This document shows positions 37,274-54,667 of a stretch of DNA of 64,000 nucleotides, piece after piece. Where the stretch lies: contig NZ_FOWZ01000002.1 in NCBI RefSeq assembly GCF_900115585.1, positions 124,001 to 188,000 of the forward strand, written 5' to 3'. The stretch comes from Qipengyuania nanhaisediminis (GTDB lineage Bacteria > Pseudomonadota > Alphaproteobacteria > Sphingomonadales > Sphingomonadaceae). Position numbers and translations under genes: made by a program. Each line of letters opens with the position of its first letter. Within the stretch, counting starts at the first letter, position 1. The notes beneath the pieces were generated by a model. That model saw only the letters and a program-made list of their open reading frames with translations. It did no database searches and had not been told where the DNA came from.

Positions 37274-38080
37274 TCAGCCTGTCTCCAGCGGCTCATCGGC
37301 GAAGCGCAGCTGCAGGAAATGCTCGCTCAGTGCCTGAGCACCTTGAAGGCTCGCGAGCTCGGTCCATGCCTCCCAGCGGTCGAGCCGGTGGATCAGCCAG
37401 GCGAACAGCCGGTCGCGCGCGAAATCGTCGCCAAAGGTCATCGACCACAACACCCGGCCAAGCGGGATGTTCGCACCCTCGGGAGGCCCGATGAGCTTGA
37501 TGCCGGGAAATTCGTCGATCTCTGCGCGGATGAACCTTGCCGGCAGGTTCAGCGCGAACTTCTCGTTCACCGCGAAGATGCGCTCGCGCTCCTCGCGAGT
37601 TTCCCCGCGGTCAAACCCGCGCTGGGGAACAAGGGTCGGTAGTCCGATCGGGATCGGCGCCGCGCTGCGAGGCCGTGTGCTGGCGAGCATGACGAGGACG
37701 GCGCGGCCCTCGATGGTAAGCTTGTCGAAGCCATCGGAAAGCCCGTGCCCCTTGAGCCAGCAGGCATAGTGGAACGCGATATCCCACGAGCCCTTAAAGA
37801 GGTCTCGCACATGCTCTTCGATATGGACGATGCGCCGATCGATGCAAGCAAGAACTGCGAGCAGCAATTCAAGTTGGTTGACGAACTCCCAATGCGATCT
37901 GCGCGCCATGGAGAGCCGGCCGCACCACAGGTATTCGCGCAAGGAATCCCAGCGCCGATCTGTCTCGTCGATGAGAGCGGGCTCGTATTCGGAATCGGCT
38001 ACACACCAATACCCCCAGGGCAGGTTCGGGTTGCGGATCCTTTCGTAGGGAAGGTCCTGTTCCATATGAGCCTCCCTCAT
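37274..38080 (-). CDS. hypothetical island protein, 268 aa
   Basis: Cytosolic protein with many Trp and His residues (NPNLPWGYWCVADSEYEPAL, IAFHYACWLKGHGLS, WLIHRLDRWEAWTELASLQ). No known domain is recognised. Its ATG overlaps the stop of the upstream gene by 4 bases (ATGA), so the two are translationally coupled. An in-frame ATG five codons later (MEQDLPYERI) is an alternative start. It belongs to the leftward accessory block of the island that also carries the two exonuclease-like genes. Confidence 0.5.
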   Translation of the reverse strand: MREAHMEQDLPYERIRNPNLPWGYWCVADSEYEPALIDETDRRWDSLREYLWCGRLSMARRSHWEFVNQLELLLAVLACIDRRIVHIEEHVRDLFKGSWDIAFHYACWLKGHGLSDGFDKLTIEGRAVLVMLASTRPRSAAPIPIGLPTLVPQRGFDRGETREERERIFAVNEKFALNLPARFIRAEIDEFPGIKLIGPPEGANIPLGRVLWSMTFGDDFARDRLFAWLIHRLDRWEAWTELASLQGAQALSEHFLQLRFADEPLETG

Positions 38081-38748
38081 GACTTGCCGAGCTTGTGCGA
38101 GAGAGACCCGAGCGCAGTGTCAGATCCTGCGGATTGACCTCTGCCGATTTCATGTAGCTGGCGCGCGAGCTTGACCGTCTCGTCATACATGTAATCGATG
38201 GAGCGATAGGTCTCGCCTTCCTCGATCGCCAGGATCGGTCTGACACCCACCGGGACGAGGTCACCGGGCTTGTCGGCCGCGAAACCGAACCACCAGGCAT
38301 CGTCCTGCGCCGTGTTCGCTGCCGACGGGCCCGAGCGAACGTGGACGTGCACATGGCAGATCTGCAGTTCTTCTGGATCGTCCCGCGAGCAGACTTCAGC
38401 ATAGTCGATCCCGCCATGCGGCGAGAGACCGGCGGTGGGCGGAACAGCATCGGTGTTGAAGCCGTGCAGCGGATGCCCGGGCGGCACGGCTACATAGCCA
38501 GCCCACACGCCGGAGGCCTGACGCAGGAGGATGCAATCGAGATTGGTCGCAGCATCGCGCCAGGCGAGCTTGTCGACCGGTTCGTGCGACCAGGGTCCGG
38601 GCAGGTTCGGACGGTGGTCCGGAATCACGAACGCCTGTTCGGGCCGCACCTCGGTATTGCCGATGGCGAAACGCTCGGGGAGCTTGGCGAGATTGGTAGT
38701 CCTGGCCTGTGCGAGCGCACGGCTGGAGGGCTTTTTCTTCTTTGGCAT
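38077..38748 (-). CDS. hypothetical island protein with WxGYVAVPPGHP domain, 223 aa
   Basis: Starts MPKKKKPSSRALAQARTTNL. The central part VWAGYVAVPPGHPLHGFNTD, GLSPHGGIDYAE and DAWWFGFAADKPGDLVP resembles a domain of unknown function common in phage and plasmid accessory genes, in which WxGYVxVPxGHPxYG is followed by an HGG motif and WxFGFD. The start at 38748 is chosen because AAGGA precedes it; the ATG at 38769 abuts the T-run of a terminator. It overlaps the following gene by 4 bases. Confidence 0.5.
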   Translation of the reverse strand: MPKKKKPSSRALAQARTTNLAKLPERFAIGNTEVRPEQAFVIPDHRPNLPGPWSHEPVDKLAWRDAATNLDCILLRQASGVWAGYVAVPPGHPLHGFNTDAVPPTAGLSPHGGIDYAEVCSRDDPEELQICHVHVHVRSGPSAANTAQDDAWWFGFAADKPGDLVPVGVRPILAIEEGETYRSIDYMYDETVKLARQLHEIGRGQSAGSDTALGSLSHKLGKS

Positions 38749-38769
38749 TTTCAAAATTCCTTCGGACAT

Positions 38770-38803
38770 AAAAAAGGCCGCTGACCCGGACGGGGAGCGG
38801 CTG
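38770..38803 (-). terminator. hairpin terminator behind the PolB-exonuclease-like gene
   Basis: AGCGGC (38796-38801) and GCCGCT (38777-38782) form the stem, and on the minus strand it is followed by CTTTTTT directly before the next gene. It separates the gene at 38933 from that at 38077. Confidence 0.6.
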
Positions 38804-38932
38804 CTGGAAGACCTGCGCACTCTGCAGGTCCTGTCTGGCACGTAACTTGTCTTGCGGCGGTGCCTCGCGCCGTATCTCGATCGGTTCAGGTCATTTTTTC
38901 CTCCCTCCTCTCTATCTCATCCCCGCTGCTGC

Positions 38933-39784
38933 TCATGGGGTTCGGTAAACCACACCGCGCAGGCCCGCGGCACGCTGCCTGTCGCGTGCCCAAGGGCGGT
39001 AGGTGGCACGTAAGAAACTGCTCTCGGGAACAGCGCTTAGCGCTGCCTCCCCGATCGCGATGGTCGACGCTTCGGCATCAATCGCAATCTCGCCATGCGA
39101 CGCCAGGTGACGCAGCGCGATCACGCTGGTGGTTATGACATCGGCGAGCACCTGCTCGCGCACTTTGGGCCAGTCGCCCTTCTCCACCAGTTGGCCAATC
39201 TGCTTGCTGGGCGACGGCTTTGCCGGAATGGAGGTCGCAGCAGCATATTCCGGAAGGTGAGGCGCCTTGGCCTGGACGGTTACCGCCCGGCACAGATCGA
39301 TACGCTCCCTGGCGTGCGGCGAGCCGTCCAGCAGATGAGGCGGCAGGACAAGTCCGAACTCGCCGGCACACCGGCGCAGGACCGCGAGGTCCTTGACCTC
39401 CCCGCCCCACGTGACGAGCTGCGCATTCGGCGCCTGACGAAGAGCCTCGAAGAACTGCGTTACCATTTCCTGTTCGCTCGCCTCTTCCCCGGTCAGAACG
39501 ATGACGCTTTCGACGGTCGGGACCTCTTCGCCGGAATCAAACCGTAACTGCATCCAGGACGCGGCGGCGATCCGGTGGAATGGCCAGCGGATCTTGGGCT
39601 CGGCGCTCTCGCCTTCGGCGACGCAATATCCTTCGTAGCGGGACCTGTCCCACCGGTATTCAAAGTCGGCGACAATGATACGCTGCAGGCCGCGGCGGAC
39701 GCGCCGGCCTTCGGCATCCAGTTCAAGGAACTTGCGAGCTTCGCGCTCGAGGGCTTGCTCGAAGCATTCTTTCTCGATGTGCAT
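38933..39784 (-). CDS. predicted 3'-5' exonuclease of the PolB-exo2-like group
   Basis: A 283-residue RNase H-fold protein. The first acidic pair is in IIVADFEYRW (D-x-E, about residue 40), then TWGGEVKDLAVLRRCAGEFG gives the second Asp motif, and VREQVLADVITTSVIALRHL supplies the third Asp-x-x-T helix, the order expected of PF10108-type exonucleases related to family-B polymerase proofreading domains. Identity is distant, so activity is inferred. It lies in tandem with a DnaQ-like gene, both followed by terminator hairpins. Confidence 0.55.
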   Translation of the reverse strand: MHIEKECFEQALEREARKFLELDAEGRRVRRGLQRIIVADFEYRWDRSRYEGYCVAEGESAEPKIRWPFHRIAAASWMQLRFDSGEEVPTVESVIVLTGEEASEQEMVTQFFEALRQAPNAQLVTWGGEVKDLAVLRRCAGEFGLVLPPHLLDGSPHARERIDLCRAVTVQAKAPHLPEYAAATSIPAKPSPSKQIGQLVEKGDWPKVREQVLADVITTSVIALRHLASHGEIAIDAEASTIAIGEAALSAVPESSFLRATYRPWARDRQRAAGLRGVVYRTP

Positions 39785-39801
39785 GATGTATTCTCCATAT
39801 G

Positions 39802-39826
39802 AAAAGACCCGCTCGGATGGCGGGTC
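39802..39826 (-). terminator. hairpin terminator between the two exonuclease-like genes
   Basis: GACCCGC (39806-39812) pairs with GCGGGTC (39820-39826) around a 7-base loop, and four T follow on the minus strand. It lies between the DnaQ-like gene and the start of the PolB-exo-like gene. Confidence 0.65.
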
Positions 39827-39861
39827 GTTGGCGTTAAAGTGAGACTTGTAAAGGAGCGCGC

Positions 39862-40752
39862 TCAGCGGTGCCGCTCACGCGCAGTGATGGCTCGCAAGGT
39901 CGGCGCTTTCAGACCATTACGATAATGCCAGGCCTCTTCGTGTTGGGCGAGTTCGGAGCTTAGCTCTTTCTCCCAGAACCCGGCGTTTGCATTCCAGCGA
40001 TATTGCCGCGCCTTGAGGAGGTCTTTCTTGCCGAACGGAGCGCCGCGCGCCTCGACCATCACGGTGTCGGTGTCCACGGTCTCGAGGAGCCGCTGCAGAT
40101 GCGAGCGGACAGCACCCGGACCAATGCCGCGTCGGCGCTGCATCAGCAGCACGAACAAGGACCATACATCGGGCCCTGCACGGTGCGCTTCGCTATACCA
40201 TCCGTGCTGCGCCAGCAGGCTCCCCTGCGCGCGGCCATCGAGACCTGCCATCAGCCAGTCGACATCCTTAAGCGAGCAGCCCCATTTGGCTTTCGCGAGC
40301 GACGGGTAGCGGCGCTCGAGAAAACCAATTTCAAATGCCGCATTGTGGCTCACGAGGACGTCCGCCCGCGAGAGGTATCCTTCGACCGACAAATCGTCGA
40401 TCTTGTGACCGTTGAGCATGTGGTTGGCGAGGCCCGTCACCAGGCTCACCCGCGGGTCCAGTTCGACGTTCGGGTCCTCGAGCCAGCTAAACGGTCCGAT
40501 GTGGGCAATGACCCCGCTTTCTTCGTCCACCCAGACGAGCATTACTGCCACCTCGATTATGGTATCATTTTCGGCATCGAGCCCGGTCGTTTCGAGATCT
40601 ACAATGCCGATACATTTTCCGTCAGGTGGAACCCCGTCATCGGGAAACAACGGGTAAGGCGTCGGGACCTTTCGCAGGACGCGATATCCCTCGTGCCGCT
40701 CAAGCAGCTGTGCGTGCTGTTCGAGCACGGGATCGAGATGGTTCGTAATCAT
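39862..40752 (-). CDS. DnaQ-like 3'-5' exonuclease (DEDDh family)
   Basis: A 296-residue protein with an exonuclease domain at about residues 45-215. Exo I is GIVDLETTGLDAENDTIIEV (catalytic D and E), exo II is LVSHNAAFEIGFLE, where the usual Asp of HNAxFD is Glu, and exo III is EAHRAGPDVWSLF with His and Asp. A C-terminal segment of about 80 residues follows (WNANAGFWEKELSSELAQHE) of the type that binds or trims single-stranded DNA in plasmid proteins. The Glu-for-Asp change may lower activity. First gene of the leftward accessory block. Confidence 0.75.
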   Translation of the reverse strand: MITNHLDPVLEQHAQLLERHEGYRVLRKVPTPYPLFPDDGVPPDGKCIGIVDLETTGLDAENDTIIEVAVMLVWVDEESGVIAHIGPFSWLEDPNVELDPRVSLVTGLANHMLNGHKIDDLSVEGYLSRADVLVSHNAAFEIGFLERRYPSLAKAKWGCSLKDVDWLMAGLDGRAQGSLLAQHGWYSEAHRAGPDVWSLFVLLMQRRRGIGPGAVRSHLQRLLETVDTDTVMVEARGAPFGKKDLLKARQYRWNANAGFWEKELSSELAQHEEAWHYRNGLKAPTLRAITARERHR

Positions 40753-42625: not shown

Positions 42626-44683
42626 TCAAGTGATGTCGTCGAGAAACTCGCTCCCAGGATCGACGCCGCTGACGAGCAGTTGATCACGAGCCCTCGTGCA
42701 AGCAACATAGAGCAGATGCCGCTCAGTCTCGTATATGCTTTCCATCTCGGCGACGTCGCCGATTGAGGCTAGCCGGTCAGGGTCCGGGATTACATCTTCG
42801 TCGCATGCCATCACGGCCACCGCCCGATATTCGAGGCCTTTCGCGTCGTGCATCACAGTAACGACTGGCCGCTTGGAAACCCCTGTTGCTGCAACAGCTT
42901 CCGCAGCAGCCTTCCGGGCGCGACCGAGCTGGTCGTGGTTACGGACAAGCAACGCAATCTGATGTGAGGGAATCCCGGACATCATGCACCGTTGCAGCCA
43001 ACCGCTCACAAAATCCCCCTCAGCGTCACTATCTTCAAACAAGTGAACCTCTGGCGTGGGACCATCAAAGATCGACACCGTGCCACGCCGGCCCTCTTCC
43101 ACGCCGTCCAGATCTGTAATCGCAGGCGGAAGCAGACGGTCTGCCATTGCCCTAATCTGGTGCGACGTGCGGTAGTTCACCCGCAGCGAATGACTGCGGC
43201 CTCGAATGTCGAGGCCCAGCTTCGCCCAGCTGAAGGGCAGCCGGAATATGCGCTGCCCGATATCGCCGGCAAGGAAGAGGGCATCGTCTCGCCCCTTCCC
43301 CACCGCGGCGAGGAAGCGGACCTGTGCGACCGTAAGGTCCTGCGCTTCGTCGACGACGACATGTTCGAAGGGGATTTTGCCGCCGTCCTCAAGCCATCCT
43401 GTCAGTTGGTCGTAAATCATTGCACGAGTGACCCAACCGTGCTCGGCCATGCGGGTTCGGACGTGGTCGAATACGGCCCATGCTGCCTCCCGCTGCTTTG
43501 GACCCAGACGGGTGCGGCGACCTATCCTGGGGAGTGTGGCGTAGCTCTCCGGGTCGGTTACGCCCCAAGCATCGACCAGCTCCTGCCATTCTTCTAGCAG
43601 GAATTGCGGTGTAAGGTCGGCGCCAAGGCCTGCCGATACGGCCTCCTCAATTAGCTTCCGTATCTGGCCATGCTCGACAAGATCTGGCTCGCCGAACTGC
43701 TCGCAATAAAGCTCTACCGCAGCTTCACCGATCGGCCGGACTGTAACCCGCTCCCGCAATTCAGGGAGAGCCTGCGTCTGGATTTCGAGCTTCGCGCACA
43801 GGGATTGCGCAAGCTCTGGGGAGAAAGTGGTCAGAAGAACGCGCACGATCTCGCTTTGCTCTGCAAGATGCACGGCGCGATGCAGTGCTACGATGGTCTT
43901 ACCCGTTCCCGCCGACCCGGTAACGCGGGTCGGGCCGGTCACCTTGCGACGCACCAATTCACGCTGCGCCGGATGCAAAAATACTGCCCATTTCTCGAAA
44001 GGGGCATCGAGCGCCGCCTTCAGTTCGTCGACATTGTCGAACACACGGAAGCGGCGCTGTGCGTCGGGATGGGAATAGGGATCGGCTCCCGGTTCGGCCG
44101 GGGTGACAATATGATCCTCAAGCTTCCCACCCGTCGCAAAATCGTAAAGGGCTTCCGCAGCCTCAGCGGGAAGTCGGTCGAATAGAGTATCGATCTCAGC
44201 CTCCGGCATCTCCTGCACTTGGTTCAGCCATTCACGTGGCACGCCGACATCGAGGAGCTGGTCGTCGGTCAACGACCAGAAGGGCTGGACGGACTCTTCA
44301 GTGGTTTCCTTCGCGTCGGAATGGTCGCCGTATTCAGGCTCGGCCCTTTGCTGACCTTCAATCACTTCCACGATCTGCATGGCGCCAGACCGCTCGTGAG
44401 GAATGAATTTGCGCCGCTCGGCCCAGCGATAGGCATCGTTGTGGTGGCCTACATACGCGAGCAGGTTATCGTCGCCGTCGCGCCGAAGAATGATACGCAG
44501 GTCCCGTGAGACGCGCGCCGACCAGACCTTGTCGTCCCCTGCCCTCGTCAGCCGTTCGAGACTTAGACCTGTGCCCTTTGGGTCCATCATCAGATCTACG
44601 GTCGTGATCTTGACCTGCTTCTGCTCTTGGTGGGTGAGCTTCCCAAGTGCCTCTGCGAACGTGGATGCATAGAGGAGTGTCAT
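42626..44683 (-). CDS. RelE/ParE-fold domain fused to UvrD-like superfamily-1 helicase
   Basis: A 685-residue protein, last gene of the restriction operon. Residues 1-95 have the pattern of RelE/ParE-type toxins (YASTFAEALGKLTHQEQKQV, WSARVSRDLRIILRR, YVGHHNDAYRWAERR). The helicase part shows Walker A GSAGTGKTIVALHRA near residue 260, motif II VVVDEAQDLTVAQ, motif III/IV GDIGQRIF and LRVNYRTSHQIR, motif V TVMHDAKGLEYRAV and motif VI VACTRARDQLLVSG. It should be an ATP-driven 3'-5' DNA translocase. It starts 10 bp behind the small basic protein gene, with AGGAG upstream. Whether the RelE-like domain cleaves RNA is unknown; the fusion occurs in other UvrD-like proteins. Confidence 0.85.
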   Translation of the reverse strand: MTLLYASTFAEALGKLTHQEQKQVKITTVDLMMDPKGTGLSLERLTRAGDDKVWSARVSRDLRIILRRDGDDNLLAYVGHHNDAYRWAERRKFIPHERSGAMQIVEVIEGQQRAEPEYGDHSDAKETTEESVQPFWSLTDDQLLDVGVPREWLNQVQEMPEAEIDTLFDRLPAEAAEALYDFATGGKLEDHIVTPAEPGADPYSHPDAQRRFRVFDNVDELKAALDAPFEKWAVFLHPAQRELVRRKVTGPTRVTGSAGTGKTIVALHRAVHLAEQSEIVRVLLTTFSPELAQSLCAKLEIQTQALPELRERVTVRPIGEAAVELYCEQFGEPDLVEHGQIRKLIEEAVSAGLGADLTPQFLLEEWQELVDAWGVTDPESYATLPRIGRRTRLGPKQREAAWAVFDHVRTRMAEHGWVTRAMIYDQLTGWLEDGGKIPFEHVVVDEAQDLTVAQVRFLAAVGKGRDDALFLAGDIGQRIFRLPFSWAKLGLDIRGRSHSLRVNYRTSHQIRAMADRLLPPAITDLDGVEEGRRGTVSIFDGPTPEVHLFEDSDAEGDFVSGWLQRCMMSGIPSHQIALLVRNHDQLGRARKAAAEAVAATGVSKRPVVTVMHDAKGLEYRAVAVMACDEDVIPDPDRLASIGDVAEMESIYETERHLLYVACTRARDQLLVSGVDPGSEFLDDIT

Positions 44684-44693
44684 CGACGTGCTC

Positions 44694-45041
44694 CTAAGTT
44701 TTCTTCTGTTTGGTGACAGGGTCCGTAGATTTGTAAGCGGCTTGTCGTGCCTCTTCTGCGAGGCGAAGTTCCGCCTCAAGGCGTTTCACGTCCTTGCGCG
44801 CTATCATCAACTCCGTCTCCACCCGCTTCACAGTCTTGTCGGACTGTGACCGCCATTGTCTGATCGAGAGGCCTGCGTGGCGGGCTTCTTGAAGCGTCAG
44901 ATGGCCGGAAAACTCCGGATGTTTCCGCTTGATCTTCCGCTTTCCCGCCTTCGTTTTGGCACCAATCTTCTTCCCTATGCCGACAAACGAACCGTGGACA
45001 CCGGCCCATCCTGATCCACCAACTCGCCGTCGACCCGACAT
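44694..45041 (-). CDS. small basic coiled-coil protein of the restriction operon, 115 aa
   Basis: The first 45 residues are Gly/Arg/Lys-rich (GKKIGAKTKAGKRKIKRKHP), probably nucleic-acid binding; the second half is a long charged helix (VKRVETELMIARKDVKRLEA), predicted coiled coil. No family is recognised. It starts 2 bp behind the Mod stop and ends 10 bp before the helicase gene, so it is embedded in the operon and may link the methylase/nuclease complex to the helicase. That link is inferred only from position. Confidence 0.6.
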   Translation of the reverse strand: MSGRRRVGGSGWAGVHGSFVGIGKKIGAKTKAGKRKIKRKHPEFSGHLTLQEARHAGLSIRQWRSQSDKTVKRVETELMIARKDVKRLEAELRLAEEARQAAYKSTDPVTKQKKT

Positions 45042-45043
45042 GT

Positions 45044-48019
45044 CTAAACCTCCAACACCTTCATAACCTCGTCGCCCAGGTGGTTGACCACCTTCACGGC
45101 TACGCGGCCGTCTTTCGGCTTTGCAAACGGCCGCGACCGGACACGGTTGAGGCTATCCCAAGCCTCCTGATCTACCTCGGCCTTCAAGGTCGTCTTCAAC
45201 GCCTTGTAGGGATCGTTCGCGCCGGGGAAGTAGGCGTGGCGGACGAAGAAGCTTTCGTAGTTGTAGTCGGTGTCGATAAACCACACGGCGATGTCGTCGG
45301 CGTCGCCGCTTTCGATCTGGCCGCCCTTATACATATCGACGCCCATCACCTCGATGCTGACCATGCCGTCGCCTTCGACGTGCACCTGAATGTCAGGCTC
45401 GCCGAATACGGTGAACAGGTTGCCTGCGCCGGTATTGGCAAGGTCCGGCATGTGCAGGTCGGGGTTGATACGCGCCTGCAGGACAGTGAGCGGGCCCATC
45501 TTGGTGACTTCACCGGCGTGGGCATCGAAGTTGAAGGCAGCGGCAATCAAGATGTCGAAGCCATTCTCCTGTGCTTCGCGTGCTGCGGCCACGACCTGCG
45601 GGCGCGTGATGGTGCCGTATTCGGGGCCGACGAAGATGGCGGCGCGACGGGTCGGGCCGGCTTCGGTTTCCTCTTCGCCCTCCGCCTCGGTCAGCGATTT
45701 CTGGCGCACGGTGCCCTCGGCGACGATCCATTCGCCGGGCCATAGCTTCATGCTTTCGAAGACGAGCTTGTCGTCTTTGGCGCGCTGCTGGACGCCAGAG
45801 CGCTTGAGATTTTCGAGCACCATCTCGGCAAAGTCGGCGCGTTCGCCGCTCTCGCCTTTCTTCGCCCTGCCCTCGGCAGCCTCGATCTCGTCGAACAGGC
45901 TGTCGTCCACATCCACGGCGGGGACGCGGTGGGGCGAGAGGCTTTCGACCGTAAAGGGCCCGGCCACGCGGACGCGGGACTTATCCTCGTAGGGCTGGTC
46001 GTAGAGATATTCGGTGTCCGCCTTGGCGGCGATGCTGGCGTCAATTTCCTGCTGGCGTTCGATGCGCAGCTTCCACCATTCGGCGTGCAGCTTCTCGCAT
46101 TCCGGGTCGTTCCAAGGATCGACCGGGTGTTCGGGCAGCGTGTCGAGCGTGTAGTCGCGCTCAAGTTCTTCGTTCAGCGTGTTCAGCCACTTCGTGCGGG
46201 TCGCATCGCTGGCGCTCTCGTTGCGCGCCTTCTCCAGCGCCTTGGCGGCATCGTCGGGCCACGGTGCGCCGGGTTCGCGCGGCATGGTCCATTCCTCGAA
46301 GGGCGGCAGGTCGGGATCGGAGCCGTCGCGGCCGCGCATCGCGTTGATTTCGGCGCGCAGGGGTTCGAGCTTTTCCTGATACTCCTCCCAGATCGTGTCG
46401 ATCTCGGCATTGTTGGCGATGCTCTTGAGCGTGATGTGCGGAACGCGTTTGTAGACGAAGCCCTGGCGGATGCGGCCCTGCGTCAGCGTATCGCGCGGCG
46501 GCGTGCGAGTGACCTCGCCTTCCTTCACCTGCCCCTCGCGGCTGTCGGCGAGCAAATACCAGGGATAGCGCGCCCCCATGATCCGCGCCCGGGCGAGCGC
46601 GAGCGCGACCCGGCTCGTGTCGATCGTGATCCAACGCCGTCCCCACTGCTCGGCGACATAGGCGGTGGTGCCCGAACCGCAGGTGGGATCGAGCACCAAA
46701 TCGCCAGGATCGGTGGTCATCAGGATGCAGCGTTCAACCACCTTGCTATTGGTCTGAACGACATAGATTTTGTCGTCAGTGAAGCTGCCCGTGATTGTAT
46801 CGGTCCAGATATTCGTTCGAACCGAGATAGGGAAGTCACCGATATAGCTTCGGAATTGGATCGAACTTCGCGTTTTCTGGATGCGTGAAGCTTTAGCAAC
46901 CCTGCCAAGGTTCTCGTGGCGAACTTTCCAATGACTGCTTCCGCCAGCACGATAGGTTTGATCGCGGAACTCAAATCGATCGTCTTTGCCAGAAGAACCC
47001 GGAGAAATGAGTGATACTAGGCGGTAACGCTTTGGGTTACGGTCATTTGTGTGATCGACAGGAACTACCGTCTCACCATCTTCATCGAGGACCGATCGAT
47101 AAAGATTGATACTACCGATCTCCTCCTTCTCTTTGAAAAGAGGTCGATATTTGACCAATTCGCGATTCCGCGCATACCACAATACTGTGTCGTTTACGGA
47201 AGGCAGCGTCGCACTCGTTGCATACGGGGTCGTTTGAAACAGCACGGAGACGACGAAATTCTCCTCCCCGAACACCTCGTCCATCAGCGCGCGCACGCGG
47301 TGGACGTTCTCGTCGCCGATCTGAACGAAGACGCTGCCACTTTCCGTCAAGAGGTCGCGCGCCACGGTCAGGCGGTCGCGCAGGTATGTAAGGTAGGAGT
47401 GGATGCCGTCCGCCCAGGTATCGCGGAAGGCCTTCACCTGCTCGGGCTCGCGCGTCAGGTGGTCGGCCTTGGCATCCTTCACGTCGCGCGAGGTGGTAGA
47501 CCACTGGAAGTTGGAGTTGAACTTGATGCCATAGGGCGGGTCGATATAGATGCACTGCACCTGGCCCTTCAGCCCCTCGCGCTCGGCCAACGATGCCATC
47601 ACCTTCAGCCCGTCGCCCAGGATCATGCGGTTCGACCAGTGCTGGTCATGCGCGTAGAACTCGGTCCGCGCCTCCGGATCGACGCCGTTGAAATCGGCGA
47701 AAAGATCGGGCGCGTCGTCGGGTTCGCCACGCTGGCTGGCGCGCTTCAGATCCTCGATCAGCGCCTTGGGATGGATTTTCTCCTGGATATAGAGCGGCGG
47801 CGCCTCGACCACGAGGTCTGACCAGTCCGCCACATCCTTCCCCCTCCACACCAGCTGCGGATCGAGATCGCGGTTGCGCCGTTCGTAAGCGACCTCGATC
47901 GGCCGTTTGGTCTCGGCGTCGACGAAGGTTTCGAGTTCCGCCGTGGGCGCGTTCTTGCGCGTCGCCTCGTCGTGGGTGAGCGTTTCGACGCGGAGGGGTT
48001 TCTTGGGTGAGCGGGCCAT
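45044..48019 (-). CDS. mod: type III-like DNA N6-adenine/N4-cytosine methyltransferase (Mod)
   Basis: A 991-residue beta-class methyltransferase, far longer than EcoP15I-type Mod (about 640). The catalytic motif IV DPPYGIKFNSNF (about residue 176) precedes the SAM motif I VLDPTCGSGTTAYVAEQW (about residue 460), the beta-class order; the target-recognition region lies between them. The last 350 residues are an acidic extension with beta-rich segments (AAIFVGPEYGTITRPQVVAA, DDIAVWFIDTDYNYESFFVR) found in Mod proteins paired with BPTD_3080-type nucleases. Its ATG overlaps the stop of the PD-ExK gene (TAATG). Confidence 0.9.
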   Translation of the reverse strand: MARSPKKPLRVETLTHDEATRKNAPTAELETFVDAETKRPIEVAYERRNRDLDPQLVWRGKDVADWSDLVVEAPPLYIQEKIHPKALIEDLKRASQRGEPDDAPDLFADFNGVDPEARTEFYAHDQHWSNRMILGDGLKVMASLAEREGLKGQVQCIYIDPPYGIKFNSNFQWSTTSRDVKDAKADHLTREPEQVKAFRDTWADGIHSYLTYLRDRLTVARDLLTESGSVFVQIGDENVHRVRALMDEVFGEENFVVSVLFQTTPYATSATLPSVNDTVLWYARNRELVKYRPLFKEKEEIGSINLYRSVLDEDGETVVPVDHTNDRNPKRYRLVSLISPGSSGKDDRFEFRDQTYRAGGSSHWKVRHENLGRVAKASRIQKTRSSIQFRSYIGDFPISVRTNIWTDTITGSFTDDKIYVVQTNSKVVERCILMTTDPGDLVLDPTCGSGTTAYVAEQWGRRWITIDTSRVALALARARIMGARYPWYLLADSREGQVKEGEVTRTPPRDTLTQGRIRQGFVYKRVPHITLKSIANNAEIDTIWEEYQEKLEPLRAEINAMRGRDGSDPDLPPFEEWTMPREPGAPWPDDAAKALEKARNESASDATRTKWLNTLNEELERDYTLDTLPEHPVDPWNDPECEKLHAEWWKLRIERQQEIDASIAAKADTEYLYDQPYEDKSRVRVAGPFTVESLSPHRVPAVDVDDSLFDEIEAAEGRAKKGESGERADFAEMVLENLKRSGVQQRAKDDKLVFESMKLWPGEWIVAEGTVRQKSLTEAEGEEETEAGPTRRAAIFVGPEYGTITRPQVVAAAREAQENGFDILIAAAFNFDAHAGEVTKMGPLTVLQARINPDLHMPDLANTGAGNLFTVFGEPDIQVHVEGDGMVSIEVMGVDMYKGGQIESGDADDIAVWFIDTDYNYESFFVRHAYFPGANDPYKALKTTLKAEVDQEAWDSLNRVRSRPFAKPKDGRVAVKVVNHLGDEVMKVLEV

Positions 48020-48903
48020 TAGTTGCGTTCCAGTGGGGCTTGGAAATGTCGGATATCATGCAATCGAAGGAGATCGCGGATTTCACCGGTGATCGGCGTT
48101 TCCGTCACGAGGATTGCTTCGACGTAGCCGTCTTGCCGCACATCCATCGCGGATTGGACGGCGCGATACTTCACGCATTGGAACACGCCCTTGCGGAAAT
48201 CCGCTTCGTTTGAGTCGCGAGACTTCACTTCGAGAACCACCACCCGGTCATCGCAGTAGTAAACCGCGTCAACACGGTCCGCAGAATCCAGTGTCACTTC
48301 GGTCTCCGAGCGGCAATCCACGTAGTCGGTATTGATGAGCGATGGATTGTCCTTCACCCACAAACGAAGCGCTTCATGGTTTGGCCCTTCGCCGATACGA
48401 CCGTATTTCAGGCCATCCTCTTCCGACCCCGCCTTACGACGGCTGCGCTCTGCCGCGATCTCTTCTACCGTGAGCTGTTGGCCAAAGGTGCGCTGGTAAA
48501 GATCGATCCAGTCTTCAGCCGTGTATTCGTAAACCTCGTGCGCTGCGTCGTCGAAGCATTCCTCCCAACGAGGATGATCAGTCCCTTTTTCGCGCAAACC
48601 GGGGATTTCGAACCGGTCCGCCATGTATCCTGCCGCACCATCGCTCGGCAGTCGGGTGCCTTGATTGACCATCAGGACATTCAGGAGCGGAGCCTCGTCG
48701 TCTTCCCATAGGACCCGATCGATCATCGAGCCGACGATGTATCCCATCTTCGGTGAGAAAATGGTGGTGAAGTCGTGTTCGCTCTCCAAGCGATCTTTAC
48801 CCTCCCCATATGTCATGGTGGAGCCATCCAGAGCGACCGCGATCAGCATCCGCATCAAAGGGGCGTGCGCGTATTGCTCTAGGTTCTCATTTGTCGGCTT
48901 CAT
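48019..48903 (-). CDS. predicted PD-(D/E)xK nuclease-like protein of the restriction operon, 294 aa
   Basis: Inserted between res and mod. The C-terminal domain has VDAVYYCDDRVVVLEVKSRD, giving the Asp and the E-x-K of a PD-(D/E)xK nuclease core, followed by FQCVKYRAVQSAM, which provides the usual Gln/Lys helix. The N-terminal 180 residues (NENLEQYAHAPLMRMLIAVA) are unassigned. The ATG at 48903 overlaps the Res stop by 4 bases and its stop overlaps mod by one base, so the three are translationally coupled. It may be a second nuclease or a DNA-end sensor, giving the system two nuclease centres. Confidence 0.7.
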   Translation of the reverse strand: MKPTNENLEQYAHAPLMRMLIAVALDGSTMTYGEGKDRLESEHDFTTIFSPKMGYIVGSMIDRVLWEDDEAPLLNVLMVNQGTRLPSDGAAGYMADRFEIPGLREKGTDHPRWEECFDDAAHEVYEYTAEDWIDLYQRTFGQQLTVEEIAAERSRRKAGSEEDGLKYGRIGEGPNHEALRLWVKDNPSLINTDYVDCRSETEVTLDSADRVDAVYYCDDRVVVLEVKSRDSNEADFRKGVFQCVKYRAVQSAMDVRQDGYVEAILVTETPITGEIRDLLRLHDIRHFQAPLERN

Positions 48904-51900
48904 CCCTGCTCTCCCCCAACCTGATCCAACCAACCCTTGATAACGCCCTCGAACTCGGTCTGGATCGTCCATTTGTCGGTGAACTCGGCAAAGGCCCAGC
49001 GGCCCATGGTGCCGAGATTGTTCACACCCGGCACCCAATAGGTCGCCATCGTTTCAGCCTTGTCCTTGGCGTCCTCGTTGCGGAACCCCTTGATCTCGAC
49101 CACGAGATGGAGCGGATCGTCCGCCCCCTTTCCATCGTCGATTTGCAGGATGAAGTCCGGTCGATATCGGTGTGCCTCGCCCCCAGCGCGATACGGAACT
49201 TCGAAGCCTAGGTTGTGGTTCTTGACCCAAGCCAGCACGCGCGGATGCGCATCGGCGACCCGGCAGAACTCAAGCTCCCAGTCGCTATCCGCAATCGCAT
49301 AATTGATGTGGCATTTCGGACCGGTTTCGTATCGGTCCTGGCTCGTGTTGAAACCGACATGCCGGGTCGAACCTTCCCGGTTGTAGGGATCGAGCATGGC
49401 GATCACGCGGTTGCCACCTTCGGCCCCGCGCGTAATCGCCGCCATAATCCGATCGGCCACCCGGTCGGCAATGTCATAATAGAGCAGCTGCGCTTGCTGA
49501 GTATTCCCTTTGCAGACGAGATGTTCGCTCATCCAGCGGCGCACGATCTTGCGCATTTCCATAATGAGGGCTGGGTTGGGAACCTCGCCATCTTCGGTGA
49601 GACGGCGACGAACGATGCGATCCGCGAGACGTAGCTGAATCGTCGCTGGACGCGTATCCGCCAGATGATCGAGGTTCATCTCGGCCTCTTCGCCCACGAT
49701 CCCTGAGTTCACCGTTTGAGCGGCCCCAACGAGATCAGGCGTTAGCTCCAGCGTCGAGTCATCGGTGAACTCGGCCCGAAGCGTGTCGCGCGGTAATTCG
49801 GTGCGGTATCCCTCGACCCGTGGAAAGCGAATTTCGACGTCGTCGCGCTCCGGGCTGATCGCCTCGACACGCACCATTGGTGGCGGCGGCTTGATCGTGG
49901 CATTTTGGGGCTGCGCCGTAAAGTCGAACGGAATGCCGAAGATGTCGGCGTATTCGACGTCAAAGCGATCCTCATCATTCAACCGGTAGGAAACACGGCG
50001 CAGCGCGCGACCAATTACCTGCTCGCACAGAAGCTGTGTGCCGAACGCGCGGACGCCGAGAACGTGAGTGACCGTATTCGCGTCCCATCCCTCGGTGAGC
50101 ATCGATACCGATACGACACACCGTATGGCTTCGCCCAGCTGACCGGGACGACCGACCGTATTCATGACTTCGCGCAGGATAGCGGTGTCGTCGATCTTCT
50201 CGGCCGCAGCCCGATCGCCAGTGCGCTGAACCAGCTCGTCCTTGAAGCGGGCGATTTCCGGTTCTGCGGCGGCTTTGAATTCGGCACTGATCGCCTCGCC
50301 GCTTTCGATCTGCTGGCTATCGATAAGCAGGGTCCGCATCTTCGGCAGGGCGACGCCGTCCGGGTCGAAATTGCGGAACAGCTTGCAGGCGCCCGCCATG
50401 AGGCGCTTGTTGCCATCCTTGTCCTCGATCTCGTAGCCCGCGATGTAGTCGTGGACGAGCTTGGACGTCGCGGTGTTGTTACAGACGACAATGAAGACCG
50501 GCTCGACGCCGAGGCCGTGCTCCTTCCAGGTTTCGAAGGTCTTCTCGTAATGCCCATAAAGCGCGTCGATCGCGGACAGAAGTTCGTTAGGAAGCTTCTG
50601 CGGATCGTCGAAGCCGGATTTTGCGCGCCCCTTTTTGGGTAGCTTCGTTCCAATATGCTCCCACAGGTTGCGGAACATCGGCGTGTCACCGCCCTCGACA
50701 TTGTCCATGATGGGCACGCGCGGCAACTTGACGATCCCGCACTCGATCGCATCCATGAGCGAGAAATCGCTCATCACCCAGCCGAAGAGCGAGCCTTCCC
50801 GGTAGCCGGAACCGCGCAAGAAAAAGGGCGTGGCAGACAGGTCATAGACCATGTTGAGGCCGAGCGTCCGCTTCACTACTTCCAGCCCGCTGATCCACAG
50901 GCGCGCCGCTTCATTGGCCTCCTTGGCCTCCGCCTTTTCGTCGCCTTTGAGCGCCTTTTCCTCTTCCGGCGATAACGGGCGTTCGCGATAGCAGTGATGC
51001 GCTTCGTCGTTCAGCACGACGATATTCTTCATACCCATTAAGGGTCCGGCCACCCGCCGGAGCATGGAACCGTCGCTCTCCTGCTTGGGCTCGGTCGCCA
51101 AGGCAGCCTGCTGGACCTTGTTGAGACTCACCTCGTCCTTTTTCTTGAAGGAATGGTAGTTGGTTATGACGATCTTTGCCTGCCCCAGATCGCGGAGCAT
51201 ATCCTCAGGCACGATGTGCCGGGTGCTATAATAGCTCTCCGGATCGTTCGGCTGCAGGACACGCAAACGGTCCTTGATGGTGATGCCAGGAGCTACAATC
51301 AGGAAACCCTTGGAAAAGCGCTTGGCGTTGGGATGGCGCACCGCGTTGAGCGTATGCCACGCGATAAGCATGGCCATGACTGTCGTTTTACCCGCGCCCG
51401 TCGCCAGCTTCAGCGCCATACGAACGAGATCAGGGTTCGACGCCTCGTTGGCCGCGAACAGGTGCTCCCAATAACGCTGCGCGGTAGCAAGCTTTGCCTT
51501 GCGTCCTTTGTGCTCCGGCTTGCCTGCCACTTCGGTCAGCCAGATCACGGTTTCGACCGCCTCGATCTGGCAGAAGAACGGCGGAAGCGGCATCTCGCCA
51601 GACCGCCAGTGGCGCAAGAGGCGCGCGGTCGTTGGCGTTACCTGCCACTGGCTTTCGGGAAGCTCCCGCCAGGTATCGACGGCTTGGCGGATACCGTTGA
51701 TGATCTCTGTTGGATCATAAATGTCGCCTTGCGCGTCCGCGAAGATGTCGGCTTGCGCTGCGCTTTTGCCGCGCATGGCTCTGGGCTTCGGTATCGGCGT
51801 GGTGAGATCGCTACGCCGCCTTCCAGTTTCCACCACACCTGTGGGCTGCCCGGCGTCTCCCAGCTGCCAATGGCGATCAGGACGCCTGTATGGCGAGTTA

Positions 51901-51944
51901 AGTATAGGGGAACTGAAAAACGCCTCGCTACTCACCACAGCCAC
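48900..51944 (-). CDS. res: type III-like restriction endonuclease/helicase subunit (Res, BPTD_3080 type)
   Basis: A 1014-residue superfamily-2 helicase-nuclease. Walker A KLATGAGKTTVMAML (about residue 180), motif Ia VAPGITIKDRL, motif II VLNDEAHHCYRERP, motif III VYDLSATPFFLRG and motif VI QVIGRALRRVSY are readable. The C-terminus holds the nuclease: YRPDFILQIDDGKG and VVEIKGFRNEDAKDKAE, a PD-ExK core. Start codon GTG at 51944. Unlike classical type III systems, res precedes mod. Together they should methylate a short site and cleave unmethylated invading DNA after ATP-driven movement. Confidence 0.88.
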   Translation of the reverse strand: MAVVSSEAFFSSPILNSPYRRPDRHWQLGDAGQPTGVVETGRRRSDLTTPIPKPRAMRGKSAAQADIFADAQGDIYDPTEIINGIRQAVDTWRELPESQWQVTPTTARLLRHWRSGEMPLPPFFCQIEAVETVIWLTEVAGKPEHKGRKAKLATAQRYWEHLFAANEASNPDLVRMALKLATGAGKTTVMAMLIAWHTLNAVRHPNAKRFSKGFLIVAPGITIKDRLRVLQPNDPESYYSTRHIVPEDMLRDLGQAKIVITNYHSFKKKDEVSLNKVQQAALATEPKQESDGSMLRRVAGPLMGMKNIVVLNDEAHHCYRERPLSPEEEKALKGDEKAEAKEANEAARLWISGLEVVKRTLGLNMVYDLSATPFFLRGSGYREGSLFGWVMSDFSLMDAIECGIVKLPRVPIMDNVEGGDTPMFRNLWEHIGTKLPKKGRAKSGFDDPQKLPNELLSAIDALYGHYEKTFETWKEHGLGVEPVFIVVCNNTATSKLVHDYIAGYEIEDKDGNKRLMAGACKLFRNFDPDGVALPKMRTLLIDSQQIESGEAISAEFKAAAEPEIARFKDELVQRTGDRAAAEKIDDTAILREVMNTVGRPGQLGEAIRCVVSVSMLTEGWDANTVTHVLGVRAFGTQLLCEQVIGRALRRVSYRLNDEDRFDVEYADIFGIPFDFTAQPQNATIKPPPPMVRVEAISPERDDVEIRFPRVEGYRTELPRDTLRAEFTDDSTLELTPDLVGAAQTVNSGIVGEEAEMNLDHLADTRPATIQLRLADRIVRRRLTEDGEVPNPALIMEMRKIVRRWMSEHLVCKGNTQQAQLLYYDIADRVADRIMAAITRGAEGGNRVIAMLDPYNREGSTRHVGFNTSQDRYETGPKCHINYAIADSDWELEFCRVADAHPRVLAWVKNHNLGFEVPYRAGGEAHRYRPDFILQIDDGKGADDPLHLVVEIKGFRNEDAKDKAETMATYWVPGVNNLGTMGRWAFAEFTDKWTIQTEFEGVIKGWLDQVGGEQG

Positions 51945-52193
51945 CCAATCCCATTTCCAATGAATCTGCTCTCATTTGAGACTCTGCATCCTAGATCCCC
52001 CTTTCCGACTGCCCGATAAAATAACAAAGATCGACCCCCTAACACGGACTTTCCAGATCATGCTCACCGCTAAGTGACCTCGGCTATATTGTTGGGCCTA
52101 AATAGGATTTGACCTCCTGCGCATCTTGCAATCGGTCCGAACTCGTGGCTTTCGTATCAAAACTTTGTGGGAGGCAAAGGGTGGTTCACGATC
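51945..52193. promoter_or_regulatory. divergent intergenic region between res and the two-gene module
   Basis: 249 bp of A/T-richer sequence separates the GTG of res from the ATG of the 359-aa gene. It must carry both promoters; no single box is clear enough to assign. No ORF or long inverted repeat is seen. Confidence 0.45.
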
Positions 52194-53273
52194 ATGAATT
52201 TGGCTAGTTTCGCTCGGGCCGGAACTATGGCCTACGCCGGATATAAATTCGGTAAAGGTGAGGATCGCCTGCAGGCCGCGACCCTTGCCGTCGCCGTGCA
52301 TACGAACCAGGAAATTGCCGAAATAAAGTATCAAGGCCGTATTGCCTTGGAGCAGAACCAGCTTCTGCTCGAGAGCCAAGACGTCGCGAACGACACTCTT
52401 CAAGACATTAAACGTGCTCAAGGAATAACCTACCTGGCGATAAGGGAAGGATTTGAACAAGCACATCAACAGGCCTTGTTGACGAATTTTGAGCTGAATT
52501 CATTAAATTCAGTGTCGCAATCAATGCTTTCCCAACTCCGCCTCCAATTGATGGAAGTTCAAAAACAGTCAGATATTCTTACAAGTATAAATCGAACTCT
52601 CAACAAGAAGAACGAAGTAGAGGCGGCCGAAATCCTCGAGCAGGGTGAAAAATTAATCGCCAGCCAAGCTCATGCCAAATCAGATCGGAGAGCAGCCCTG
52701 ATCCAAGAGGCGCTGAGCCAATTTGACAGGTCTACAGCCCTCGACCCGTTCAATGAGCGCGCCTGGATGCTGAAGGCATATTGGAATTGGTTCATAAACC
52801 CCAACGACCAAAGGTGGCTGGACTATTTTGCCGAGGCATGGCGCGTTCTACAAACCGAACTTCACAGCAGCGACGATGTCCAGCGAGAAATAGCCAAGAA
52901 AACTGCCCCGTTTCTCGCAGAACTCACGTCACAATGCATGTGCCAGTCCGGTTTGTGGCGGGAATTTCTAGAGGACTACGCAGATAGCTGCCTTGAGCAC
53001 GGGGCTGAAGACTTCGGTTTTTCCGTCAAAGCCGCTGTAATTAAGGCAACCATGATGCACGAGGGCTACAACGAGAAAATCGAAGCTGATGTAAACGAGT
53101 TTATGAACTTGTTTAGCATTCGTGCACTCTTGGAAGTCATCGTTGCCGATATCCGCGTTTATACCAGCGAGGCAGGATCTAGGGTAATCCGAATTATCAA
53201 GAATGCTCTACGTAGTCAGGAGCAATCCATGCATGGACTAATGAATATGGAGAGTCTCCGTGGAAATGCGTGA
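52194..53273 (+). CDS. hypothetical coiled-coil/TPR-like protein, 359 aa, first gene of a two-gene unit
   Basis: Soluble protein starting MNLASFARAGTMAYAGYKFG. Residues 20-150 are helical with coiled-coil character (QLLLESQDVANDTLQDIKRA, MLSQLRLQLMEVQKQSDILT). The part around LIQEALSQFDRSTALDPFNE followed by RAWMLKAYWNWFI has the A-to-F spacing of a TPR-like helix pair. The rest is helical without known motif. Base composition is clearly more A/T-rich than neighbours. It overlaps the membrane-protein gene by 14 bases, so the products probably act together. Confidence 0.55.
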   Translation: MNLASFARAGTMAYAGYKFGKGEDRLQAATLAVAVHTNQEIAEIKYQGRIALEQNQLLLESQDVANDTLQDIKRAQGITYLAIREGFEQAHQQALLTNFELNSLNSVSQSMLSQLRLQLMEVQKQSDILTSINRTLNKKNEVEAAEILEQGEKLIASQAHAKSDRRAALIQEALSQFDRSTALDPFNERAWMLKAYWNWFINPNDQRWLDYFAEAWRVLQTELHSSDDVQREIAKKTAPFLAELTSQCMCQSGLWREFLEDYADSCLEHGAEDFGFSVKAAVIKATMMHEGYNEKIEADVNEFMNLFSIRALLEVIVADIRVYTSEAGSRVIRIIKNALRSQEQSMHGLMNMESLRGNA

Positions 53274-54333
53274 TTTCGATCCGGCTGATGAGATAACAAA
53301 ATCGCTATCCGCCAACGGATACCGAATTGGTGCACTTCTTGAAAAAATAGACTCCTCCTATAGTCGAGCTAGTGCCTTCTGCTCCTACGTCGAGGGAAAC
53401 ATGGAGGGATATCGCAACAACCTAAACTCTCTTCAATTAAAAAGAGAATCGATAGTGCGTGATATCGATACTTCACTATCCGATCTCTATTTAGAAGCCG
53501 ATCATGCTTTTTCGAAGCAGAATGCGGATGACTTAAGTCAAAATAGGTTCTCATTTTTTGGGAAAGCCGAGAAATCCATCGAAAATGTTCGCGATCGGTT
53601 GACACAACTTAAAGAGCGCGCTGACGATCTGTCCATCGAGCTACTGCATGAGCATCAGTGGGAGCTAGAGGACTTATTTCAACGCTACTCGATCGCGGAC
53701 TTCTACCGGTCCATCCCAGCAAGCTCCATTCAGTCAGAGCTTGAATCGATTGCAGAATGTCATTCTGGATACTCGGATGACGAAATCGAGCAAAAGAAGA
53801 AATCATACCTCATTCTGGGAGGTGTCGCAGGGCTTATCCTAGCGATTTTCACCTACCCATTAGCCATGTGGTCGTTTGGGAATATTGCGGATAATGGCGG
53901 AATCTTTTCTGTGCTCATTCTTCTTGCCATTCTCGGAGGCGCCACGATCCTTCTAGGAGTTAATGAATCGGGTTGGGTGCTTGCCGCGGGCGGTTTATTT
54001 GCTCTCGCCCTCTTCTTTTATCTTCTGCCTCTACTAATAATAGGCGCCAGTGCAGGTCTGGCTTGGTATTTGTTCGATCAACAAATGGAAAAAAACGCGA
54101 GTTTGCAAAGCCATCACCGACGACAAATGGGGAGCGCTGCAGAGAAAATAGGTAAACGTATCTTGGATGATTGTCGGGGGACGCAATTAAGGATCGGAAG
54201 CGAATTGATGGCGGAGATCGAAAAGGAATCTGCCATTCTGGAAAATCTCATTGAGCAGCTCGCTAGTCTTGAGGCCGACTTTTCAGCAAGGTTGGCGAAA
54301 GCCCAGCGGATTCGGAAATTAGCCATCGGCTAA
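53260..54333 (+). CDS. membrane protein with flanking coiled coils, 357 aa, second gene of the unit
   Basis: N-terminal 185 residues are helical and charged (SYVEGNMEGYRNNLNSLQLK, ENVRDRLTQLKERADDLSIE). Four membrane helices follow: about 186-210 (LILGGVAGLILAIFTYPL), 218-240 (IFSVLILLAILGGATILL), 245-262 and 263-282 (LFALALFFYLLPLLIIGA). A further coiled coil closes the protein (LIEQLASLEADFSARLAKAQ). Start is GTG 53260, or ATG 53266; the former overlaps the upstream gene by 14 bases. The gene is A/T-rich like its partner. A membrane-acting effector is plausible but not shown. Confidence 0.55.
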   Translation: MEMRDFDPADEITKSLSANGYRIGALLEKIDSSYSRASAFCSYVEGNMEGYRNNLNSLQLKRESIVRDIDTSLSDLYLEADHAFSKQNADDLSQNRFSFFGKAEKSIENVRDRLTQLKERADDLSIELLHEHQWELEDLFQRYSIADFYRSIPASSIQSELESIAECHSGYSDDEIEQKKKSYLILGGVAGLILAIFTYPLAMWSFGNIADNGGIFSVLILLAILGGATILLGVNESGWVLAAGGLFALALFFYLLPLLIIGASAGLAWYLFDQQMEKNASLQSHHRRQMGSAAEKIGKRILDDCRGTQLRIGSELMAEIEKESAILENLIEQLASLEADFSARLAKAQRIRKLAIG

Positions 54334-54649: not shown

Positions 54650-54667
54650 TCCCTGCCACCCCAGCCA
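54650..54667 (+). repeat. attR core of the genomic island
   Basis: TCCCTGCCACCCCAGCCA, exact copy of the tRNA-Gln 3' end at 30329-30346. Upstream bases do not continue the tRNA, so only the 3' part is duplicated, as expected for insertion by a tyrosine integrase. Confidence 0.85.

Follow-up and report, generated by a model that had tools for sequence, protein, structure and literature searches.

In this analysis, we focus on a five-gene restriction operon of Qipengyuania nanhaisediminis, found on the minus strand at positions 42626-51944 of a stretch of 64,000 nucleotides (contig NZ_FOWZ01000002.1, positions 124,001 to 188,000), the whole of which we call the window. We lean towards seeing in it a modular restriction operon, in which a recurrent core of three genes, encoding a restriction endonuclease (Res), a DNA methyltransferase (Mod) and a RelE-UvrD helicase, offers two positions for cargo genes, whose products would be second-line effectors and whose replacement would be driven by recombination. 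The first position, slot 1, lies between Res and Mod, and the second, slot 2, between Mod and UvrD, so that the order is Res, slot 1, Mod, slot 2, UvrD. Comparison of sequences establishes the recurrence of the core, the two exchange positions, the exchange of the middle of Mod and the purifying selection on the core. The trio probably serves defence against viruses. The features of the operon, with lengths in amino acids (aa), are the following:

48900-51944, minus strand: Res of the BPTD_3080 family, core gene 1, with a superfamily 2 (SF2) helicase core and a C-terminal PD-(D/E)xK motif
48019-48903, minus strand: slot-1 cargo, a 294-aa protein with a predicted C-terminal PD-(D/E)xK domain (D209/D212...E225-x-K227)
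45044-48019, minus strand: Mod, a type III-like DNA methyltransferase, core gene 2, with DPPY at residue 160 and DPTCGSG at residue 444
46808-47251, minus strand: exchanged middle of Mod, the presumed target-recognition domain, without blastn similarity to the same-genus Mod (flanks at about 90%)
44694-45041, minus strand: slot-2 cargo, a 115-aa basic protein with an isoelectric point (pI) of 11.1
42626-44683, minus strand: UvrD/GajB-like helicase, core gene 3, ArmD-like, with a RelE/HigB-like N-terminal domain
44354-44683, minus strand: RelE/HigB-like N-terminal domain of the UvrD protein, with R63, H80, H81 and Y85 invariant in 32 sequences

A previous reading, made from the sequence only, had described these genes as one leftward operon with junctions of 4, 1, 2 and 10 base pairs (bp), and this is what the sequence and its list of open reading frames (ORFs) contain: five leftward ORFs on the minus strand, at the coordinates given at that time. 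The Res stop overlaps the start of the 294-aa gene by 4 bp (ATGA, 48900-48903), the stop of the latter overlaps the Mod start by 1 bp (TAATG, 48019), a gap of 2 bp separates the Mod stop from the start of the 115-aa gene, and 10 bp separate the stop of that gene from the UvrD ATG (44683). Res probably starts at the GTG at 51944, as in the earlier note, rather than at the ATG at 51776, because the residues upstream of this ATG are common to the family consensus and to the same-genus protein; the Res searches were run with the shorter form of 958 aa.

The exchange of cargo can be followed in another genome of the genus (G767, locus L237), whose Res and UvrD proteins are 97.9% and 88% identical in amino acids to those of the window. 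The two share four blastn blocks (48938-51946, 47252-48006, 45044-46807 and 42636-44683 in the window), and both slots as well as the middle of Mod lie outside of them. The block edges are exact at the Mod stop and at the UvrD ATG, while the other two are shifted into the core genes, by 38 bp in Res and by 13 bp in Mod. Slot 1 of this genome encodes an unrelated 311-aa protein, at 48% to the DUF4268-like slot-1 protein of locus L041, slot 2 encodes a 337-aa NYN-domain protein in place of the 115-aa protein, and the first three junctions are spaced as in the window (-4, -1 and +2). Along Mod, identity between the two genomes is mostly 0.8-0.98 per 60 columns, and it is 0.40-0.68 at codons ~260-426; the swapped region between DPPY and DPTCGSG presumably serves target recognition. 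Purifying selection acts on the core, as shown by the ratio of nonsynonymous to synonymous substitution rates, which amounts to 0.022 in Res, 0.164 in Mod and 0.104 in UvrD. Among the 31 genomes of the genus, Res is present in two, that of the window included, and Qipengyuania sp. XHP0211 carries a truncated remnant of it (L064, 9815-12229; residues 2-719, 98.7% identical in amino acids and 89% in DNA).

The sequence-only reading had the 294-aa and 115-aa proteins locked in to the system, a claim that these data contradict: the same-genus genome keeps the core and has unrelated genes in place of both, and elsewhere the two positions hold other families or nothing. A single fixed five-gene system with two obligatory nucleases would account for the tight junctions and for the related slot-1/slot-2 pair of Croceibacterium (35%, and a weak match at E 9e-4). 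This candidate is ruled out by the replacement of both cargo genes within the genus, and Rhizobium leguminosarum, where slot 1 has a homologue of the 294-aa protein (51.5%) but the slot-2 gene is another one, also argues against it, as do the minimal three-gene operons, one being the bare trio with 1-bp junctions on an annotated Pseudomonas avellanae plasmid. We leave it hardly any probability.

The recurrence of the core was studied in 102 loci chosen by similarity to the window Res: a profile search of named genomes matched at least 586 stretches, 559 of which were confirmed and the best 80 retained, and 20 loci from further genomes and two plasmid loci were added. Res is followed by Mod in 89 of the 102 loci, 57 of which have the order Res-Mod-UvrD; four have Mod-Res, and nine are without Mod, eight of these having less than 3 kilobases (kb) after Res and the ninth being the XHP0211 remnant. 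One locus (L055) was removed as a duplicate, being on the same contig as L061, which leaves 88 Res-Mod loci; L058 and L059 (Res at 32-33%, Mod-Res order), L050 and L051 were left out of the slot counts. The UvrD gene follows in order in 56 of the 88, is absent in 14, counted as such where at least 4.5 kb follow Mod, and is untestable in 18. The trio is thus found in order in 56 of the 70 testable near-relative loci, and it spans 12 named phyla (44 of the 56 loci have a phylum name). The earlier expectation that Res and Mod would co-occur in synteny with all three other genes therefore stands for UvrD and fails for the 294-aa and 115-aa genes, without which the pair mostly occurs. One genome (G065) has two copies of the system that differ in their slot-1 cargo, HepT plus a nucleotidyltransferase in one and PIN in the other (L046, L054).

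Under a 260-bp rule, slot 1 is filled in 59 of the 88 loci and slot 2 in 48 of the 56, both slots being empty in 7 of the 56. Ancylobacter amanitiformis and Xenophilus sp. are examples of trios whose slots are both empty under the criterion used. The outer slot genes lie within -25 to +40 bp of the core gene at 38/54, 35/54, 38/47 and 38/47 junctions, the nearest start having been chosen, and slot calling weighted minus-strand ORFs by 0.8, favouring the plus strand (162 vs 18). The slot proteins of at least 85 aa, those of the window included, number 164 and fall into 102 clusters, in which some ORFs of 85-130 aa may not be genes. Pfam recognises more than 30 kinds of cargo, many of toxin, nuclease or defence type: Fic, Bro-N, HepT, nucleotidyltransferase, GmrSD, PIN, NYN, DUF4411, YhcG, SIR2 and HerA, as well as AAA with subtilase, DarT with macro, RhuM, TIR, GHKL ATPases, OLD-like ATPases and NOV_C. 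Ten of 40 slot proteins searched (38 cluster representatives) and four of ten further ones (two from G767 and two from Rhizobium among them) had no Pfam family. The PADLOC scan covered 95 of the 102 cluster representatives and the window 294-aa protein, and reports families rather than member counts; ten chosen cargo proteins gave strong matches to IetA, IetS, SIR2, HerA, DarT, ThsB and SoFic, two weaker matches and, for one, none.

Cargo differs even between close cores, as in the Azonexus, Accumulibacter and Casimicrobiaceae loci, whose Res are 89-90% identical and whose slot-1 cargo is Bro-N, Fic or DUF4062. On a FastTree phylogeny of 89 Res, slot-1 states change 34 times (least possible 11; mean 39.6 and minimum 36 in 200 shuffles) and slot-2 states 14 times (least possible 8; shuffled mean 17.9, minimum 15). 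The families also have a preferred position, since 26 of the 29 present in at least two loci are confined to one slot, against a mean of 9.8 and a maximum of 17 in 5000 shuffles. A Shine-Dalgarno GGAGG is found at the end of Mod in the window, G767, Croceibacterium and Aquibaculum; as a general socket for slot 2 it was rejected, 3 of 77 Mod tails having it against a mean of 1.85 and a maximum of 3 in a synonymous-codon control.

The nature of Res and Mod connects the core to the type III systems. Res belongs to the NCBIfam BPTD_3080 family of restriction endonucleases (NF046055; 1193 bits against a curated cut-off of 800) and carries GAGKT, DEAH and a C-terminal PD...E-x-K, of which P873, D874, E894 and K896 are invariant in 8 sequences; it has the SF2 motor and C-terminal PD-(D/E)xK nuclease of type III. 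The established model of type III Res, in contrast, hardly recognises it (PRK15483 at E 0.011 and 13.6 bits against a cut-off of 564), PADLOC REase_III gives 25 bits at best, and a PDB sequence search found no solved relative at E 0.01. Mod, of 991 aa, matches Pfam N6_N4_Mtase and PADLOC MTase_III (1108 bits), among solved structures it comes closest to two Mod proteins, with that of EcoP15I in second place, and its exchanged middle between DPPY and DPTCGSG points to the internal recognition region of type III Mod proteins. The gene order is not that of type III, since res comes first in 89 of the 102 loci and mod lies upstream in 27 of the 27 classic loci where Mod was found. Because of the Res model and the gene order, this locus, judged on its sequence, is not a standard member of type III; the family models and gene order do bear out the earlier description of a type III-like pair with res first.

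The third core protein is a superfamily 1 (SF1) helicase according to Pfam, PDB and structure alignment, with K262 in its Walker A motif. Its model, with a mean predicted local distance difference test (pLDDT) score of 78, aligns with Rep/PcrA at Z ~19 over ~390 residues with a large root-mean-square deviation (rmsd), and with GajB at Z 14.4 and rmsd 8.7 over 316 residues (VIA-align), the PADLOC score for GajB being 79 bits. Since the VIA-align rows span residues 232-685, they say nothing on the N-terminus. There, the RelE-like family phrog_1213 matches the window protein (E 0.002) and Pfam HigB-like_toxin is found in 16 of 22 members of the helicase family (best 3.3e-6), which supports the RelE-fold N-terminus on a UvrD translocase proposed from the sequence only. 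The model of this domain has the order beta-alpha-alpha-beta-beta-beta-beta-alpha, which is that of RelE, so that profile and predicted strand order together point to the RelE/HigB superfamily; matches to the PDB are weak, RelE3 and YoeB (E 0.65-0.84) ranking behind a ribosomal protein (E 0.21).

This domain could be dead or could only bind, UvrD merely processing the ends left by restriction with no toxin-like action. Its similarity to HigB/RelE is indeed distant, and in ARMADA type II, whose ArmD is a related helicase, deletion of any of the four genes or mutation of the ArmD Walker A motif abolished defence and a Walker B mutation weakened it, the accessible part of that source describing no mutant of the RelE domain (PMC12458937). 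The invariance of R63, H80, H81, Y85 and W87 in 32 RelE-UvrD sequences, on the other hand, exceeds what a spacer domain would need. On balance we find a dead or binding-only domain quite conceivable, if doubtful.

The two cargo proteins of the window are less typical. The 294-aa protein has no family in Pfam, NCBIfam or PHROGs, no significant solved relative in a PDB sequence search and a weak PADLOC match to Cas4 (E 0.015). Its AlphaFold2 model is poor overall (mean 51), with a first part of ~170 residues at low confidence and a C-terminal part (~171-290) that is fairly confident (block means 67-87, dips to 52-54). At the head of the Foldseek list, three matches have an E of 0.001 or lower, VC1899 and two proteins of R2 retrotransposons, and nucleases including Cdn1, Can2 and BspD6I come next; we take all of these to be restriction-like folds, and a PD-(D/E)xK-like fold is predicted for the C-terminal part. 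The earlier designation as a PD-ExK protein is thus retained for this part of the model, and the ~170 N-terminal residues give it no support. Relatives occur in 4 of 385 alphaproteobacterial genomes, that of the window included, and not in the viral contigs searched; two of them, ~30% identical, have no core gene in the 11-18 kb around them. As for the 115-aa protein, described before as a basic coiled-coil protein, it is indeed basic (pI 11.1, 29 K+R vs 11 D+E), and the coiled coil is merely suggested by heptads, read without a control.

Several observations weigh against the modular reading. The loci were selected by closeness to the window Res, and even so 14 of the 70 testable ones are without UvrD. 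In an even sample of the class (385 alphaproteobacterial genomes), the NF046055 Res is found in 23, of which 12 have a RelE-UvrD match at E 1e-30 or better and 11 have none; conversely, 7 of the 19 genomes with the helicase lack Res, which the other 12 have. On either side, contig ends perhaps account for some of the missing partners. The comparison of 56/70 with 12/23 therefore makes the trio the rule among near relatives and a feature of about half the wider family. Other arrangements exist: in two Tistrella-type loci (L050, L051) the order is Mod-Res and RelE-UvrD follows at once on the other strand, two diverged loci have Mod-Res without UvrD, and in G190 (L161, 9665-14482) Mod is directly followed by RelE-UvrD, with no Res in the 20 kb around. 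Cargo is dispensable, since 29 of the 88 loci have no slot-1 gene, and it is partly inherited, though labile, since the 34 slot-1 changes lie below all 200 shuffles. Concerning the helicase, the N-terminus of the window's own UvrD has no match to the Pfam HigB-like_toxin model, and RelE catalysis there is hypothetical.

A further point against the modular reading comes from a control with classic type III loci. A PRK15483-like Res was found in 41 of 398 genomes, 5 of the 41 exceeding the model cut-off, and 32 regions, of Pseudomonadota, were compared; in 27 of them an upstream Mod was called, by motif and length alone. A mod-res gap above 600 bp, classed as an embedded gene, is present in 10 of the 27, although among these ten L212 has no listed ORF of 85 aa and the 392-aa "Mod" of L209 may be a wrong call. 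With gaps measured between aligned ends in our loci and between ORFs in the control, slot 1 and the classic gap are filled in 59/88 vs 11/27 loci at 260 bp (p 0.02) and in 50/88 vs 10/27 at 600 bp (p 0.08), and slot 2 in 48/56 (p 5e-5) and 43/56 (p 6e-4) at these same thresholds. That slots are unique to BPTD_3080-type loci is ruled out, classic type III embedded genes being nearly as frequent as slot 1, and a higher occupancy of slot 1 than of the classic gap is no longer claimed, as its p of 0.007 (slot 2: 1.7e-5) came from unequal thresholds, 260 vs 600 bp. It follows from the equal-threshold control that embedded genes are not special to Res-Mod-UvrD loci, and that the second slot before the helicase is an added feature.

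The slots could thus be passive landing sites, where toxin-antitoxin or defence genes settle because they are expressed there and hard to lose, with no functional link to the core. The great number of unrelated families (102 clusters for 164 proteins), the frequent empty slots and the classic type III genes, hardly rarer than those of slot 1, all fit this explanation. It fits less well with the fidelity of 26 of the 29 cargo families to one slot, part of which shared descent could explain, and with a slot 2 that is fuller than the classic gap. We judge passive slots somewhat improbable. At the other extreme, the trio would be a general immune chassis, which restricts unmethylated DNA and keeps plugged-in effectors silent as long as no phage has blocked or overtaken it, cargo and recognition region being independently replaceable; in that case, a single core would support dozens of second-line immune responses in different bacterial phyla, and we regard this as unlikely. 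The equal-threshold control and the 12/23 of the even sample weaken both this reading and that of a modular operon, and they strengthen that of passive slots.

Under the modular reading, to which we still incline, the system can be pictured by analogy with known ones. Mod would methylate adenine in an asymmetric site of the host, and Res, together with Mod, would find unmethylated sites in entering DNA, translocate and cut through its C-terminal PD-(D/E)xK domain in the manner of EcoP15I. The RelE-UvrD protein would be loaded on the cut or single-stranded phage DNA, which it would unwind, ending phage replication, while the RelE-like domain, tethered to the motor, might cut or merely bind RNA near the invader; ArmD, which is built alike, is required for ARMADA defence. 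The slot genes, here those of the predicted PD-(D/E)xK nuclease and of the small basic protein, would provide second-line effectors off the same message, called into action by phages that evade the core or inhibit it, on the model of PrrC in EcoprrI. As suggested from the sequence only, the DNA may be degraded once it has been cut, or the response may be toxin-like. Cargo and recognition region would be swapped by recombination in the flanking conserved core genes.

The operon is held by a genomic island next to a tRNA gene:

30347-54718, no strand: genomic island holding the operon, 24.4 kb, which three other genomes of the genus, compared at this site, do not have
30329-30346, plus strand: 3' end of tRNA-Gln(ttg), candidate attL
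54650-54667, plus strand: 18-bp direct repeat of the tRNA-Gln 3' end, candidate attR
30480-32492, plus strand: 670-aa protein adjoining the tRNA, its C-terminal half like tyrosine recombinases

The DNA common with the same-genus genomes ends with the final base of tRNA-Gln, at 30346, and begins again at 54719, or at 54785 for one of them, these three genomes having ~1.5-2.5 kb of other DNA at the site. The 670-aa protein is 34.6% identical to an annotated tyrosine-type recombinase/integrase, its other match being weak (E 0.65). The island also contains two overlapping rightward ORFs of 368 and 357 aa (52167-54333), divergent from the operon and with a GC content of 0.46-0.50 vs ~0.60, and a leftward run of ORFs (37274-40752) that includes a 296-aa protein whose start, DLETTGLD, resembles that of an exonuclease by eye.

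Among known systems, ARMADA type II (bioRxiv 2025.09.15.676423, PMC12458937) shares with the window, in the part of this source accessible to us, an ArmD-like RelE-UvrD as the last gene, preceded by a methyltransferase and an SF2 helicase, and two loci assigned to it also have inserted genes. This common logic of methyltransferase plus translocase would agree with a diverged ARMADA type II system, as would the SNF2-type helicase that precedes UvrD in slot 2 of L041. L041 and L162 both have a slot-2 protein of 954-956 aa, that of L162 being like the other by its start, and a link of both to the BrxHII-like helicase of ARMADA is possible. However, the same source gives ARMADA a YprA-like helicase (ArmC), a BrxHII-like helicase and a PglX-like methyltransferase (ArmB), whereas the window has a BPTD_3080 Res and a type III-like Mod; no YprA-like or PglX-like protein is found among the five, and the listed stretches of the island that flank the operon, which were read as ORFs, have no further one above 720 aa. 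On a FastTree phylogeny of 69 proteins, the helicases associated with restriction-modification (RM) and 8 from ARMADA contexts form separate clades (support 99), the ARMADA label having been assigned to the comparison loci from gene order, size and annotation, with the L230 genes annotated as hypothetical. A diverged ARMADA system is, in our view, very improbable.

Methylation-based systems with the ArmD-type RelE-helicase are thus of more than a single kind, and in G183 it stands in an ARMADA-like setting. The nearest relative of the window's helicase (73%) is on a Qipengyuania citrea plasmid, and as it is nested in the RM clade, the helicase gene too moves between systems. It lies there in a run of genes of the same direction with short or overlapping junctions (L035, 10787-22757), which encode a TM0106-family nuclease, a 240-aa protein, RelE-UvrD and a 1900-aa DUF4011 protein, and which together could form a defence operon, as yet undescribed, with this helicase in it. 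Gabija has in GajB a similar helicase part, to which a RelE-like domain is added here; no GajA (ATPase-TOPRIM) partner is found among the five proteins, which separates the operon from Gabija.

Classic type III (EcoP15I) shares the Mod similarity, the recognition region in the middle, an SF2 Res with C-terminal PD-(D/E)xK and the occasional mod-res gene; it differs in that its Res is just remotely similar, while the present family is res-first, the Mod here having 991 aa, and possesses one more core gene and one more slot. We found no description of the Res-Mod-RelE-UvrD trio or of its slots in the open-licence literature of PubMed Central. Embedded effectors in restriction loci are known, in the accessible parts of these sources, from a few documented cases (PrrC, TgvAB) and from neighbourhood surveys (PMC3710099, PMC12707154, PMC11411939). 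EcoprrI, a type IC RM system with PrrC (PMC3710099, PMC12707154), likewise has in its operon an effector gene, triggered when RM is blocked, but it is of type I with a single cargo, against two slots with many families here. The type I RM operon of Vibrio cholerae VPI-2 contains a complete defence system, TgvAB (PMC11411939), and GmrSD-type cargo is also found here; this case and the embedded genes of Payne et al. 2024, as cited in the same article, are described there for type I RM and Hma, and not for a Res-Mod-RelE-UvrD core. BREX with auxiliary effectors (PMC12839542) resembles the operon, as far as the accessible part of that source extends, in hosting diverse nuclease and toxin genes in a methylation-based core locus, and differs in its core genes. 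Compared with these systems, the present family offers close natural pairs, with the same core, two fixed positions and different cargo even within a genus, so that the gating of effectors by a restriction core can be tested through cargo swaps, and the contents of its slots are a route to new defence genes.

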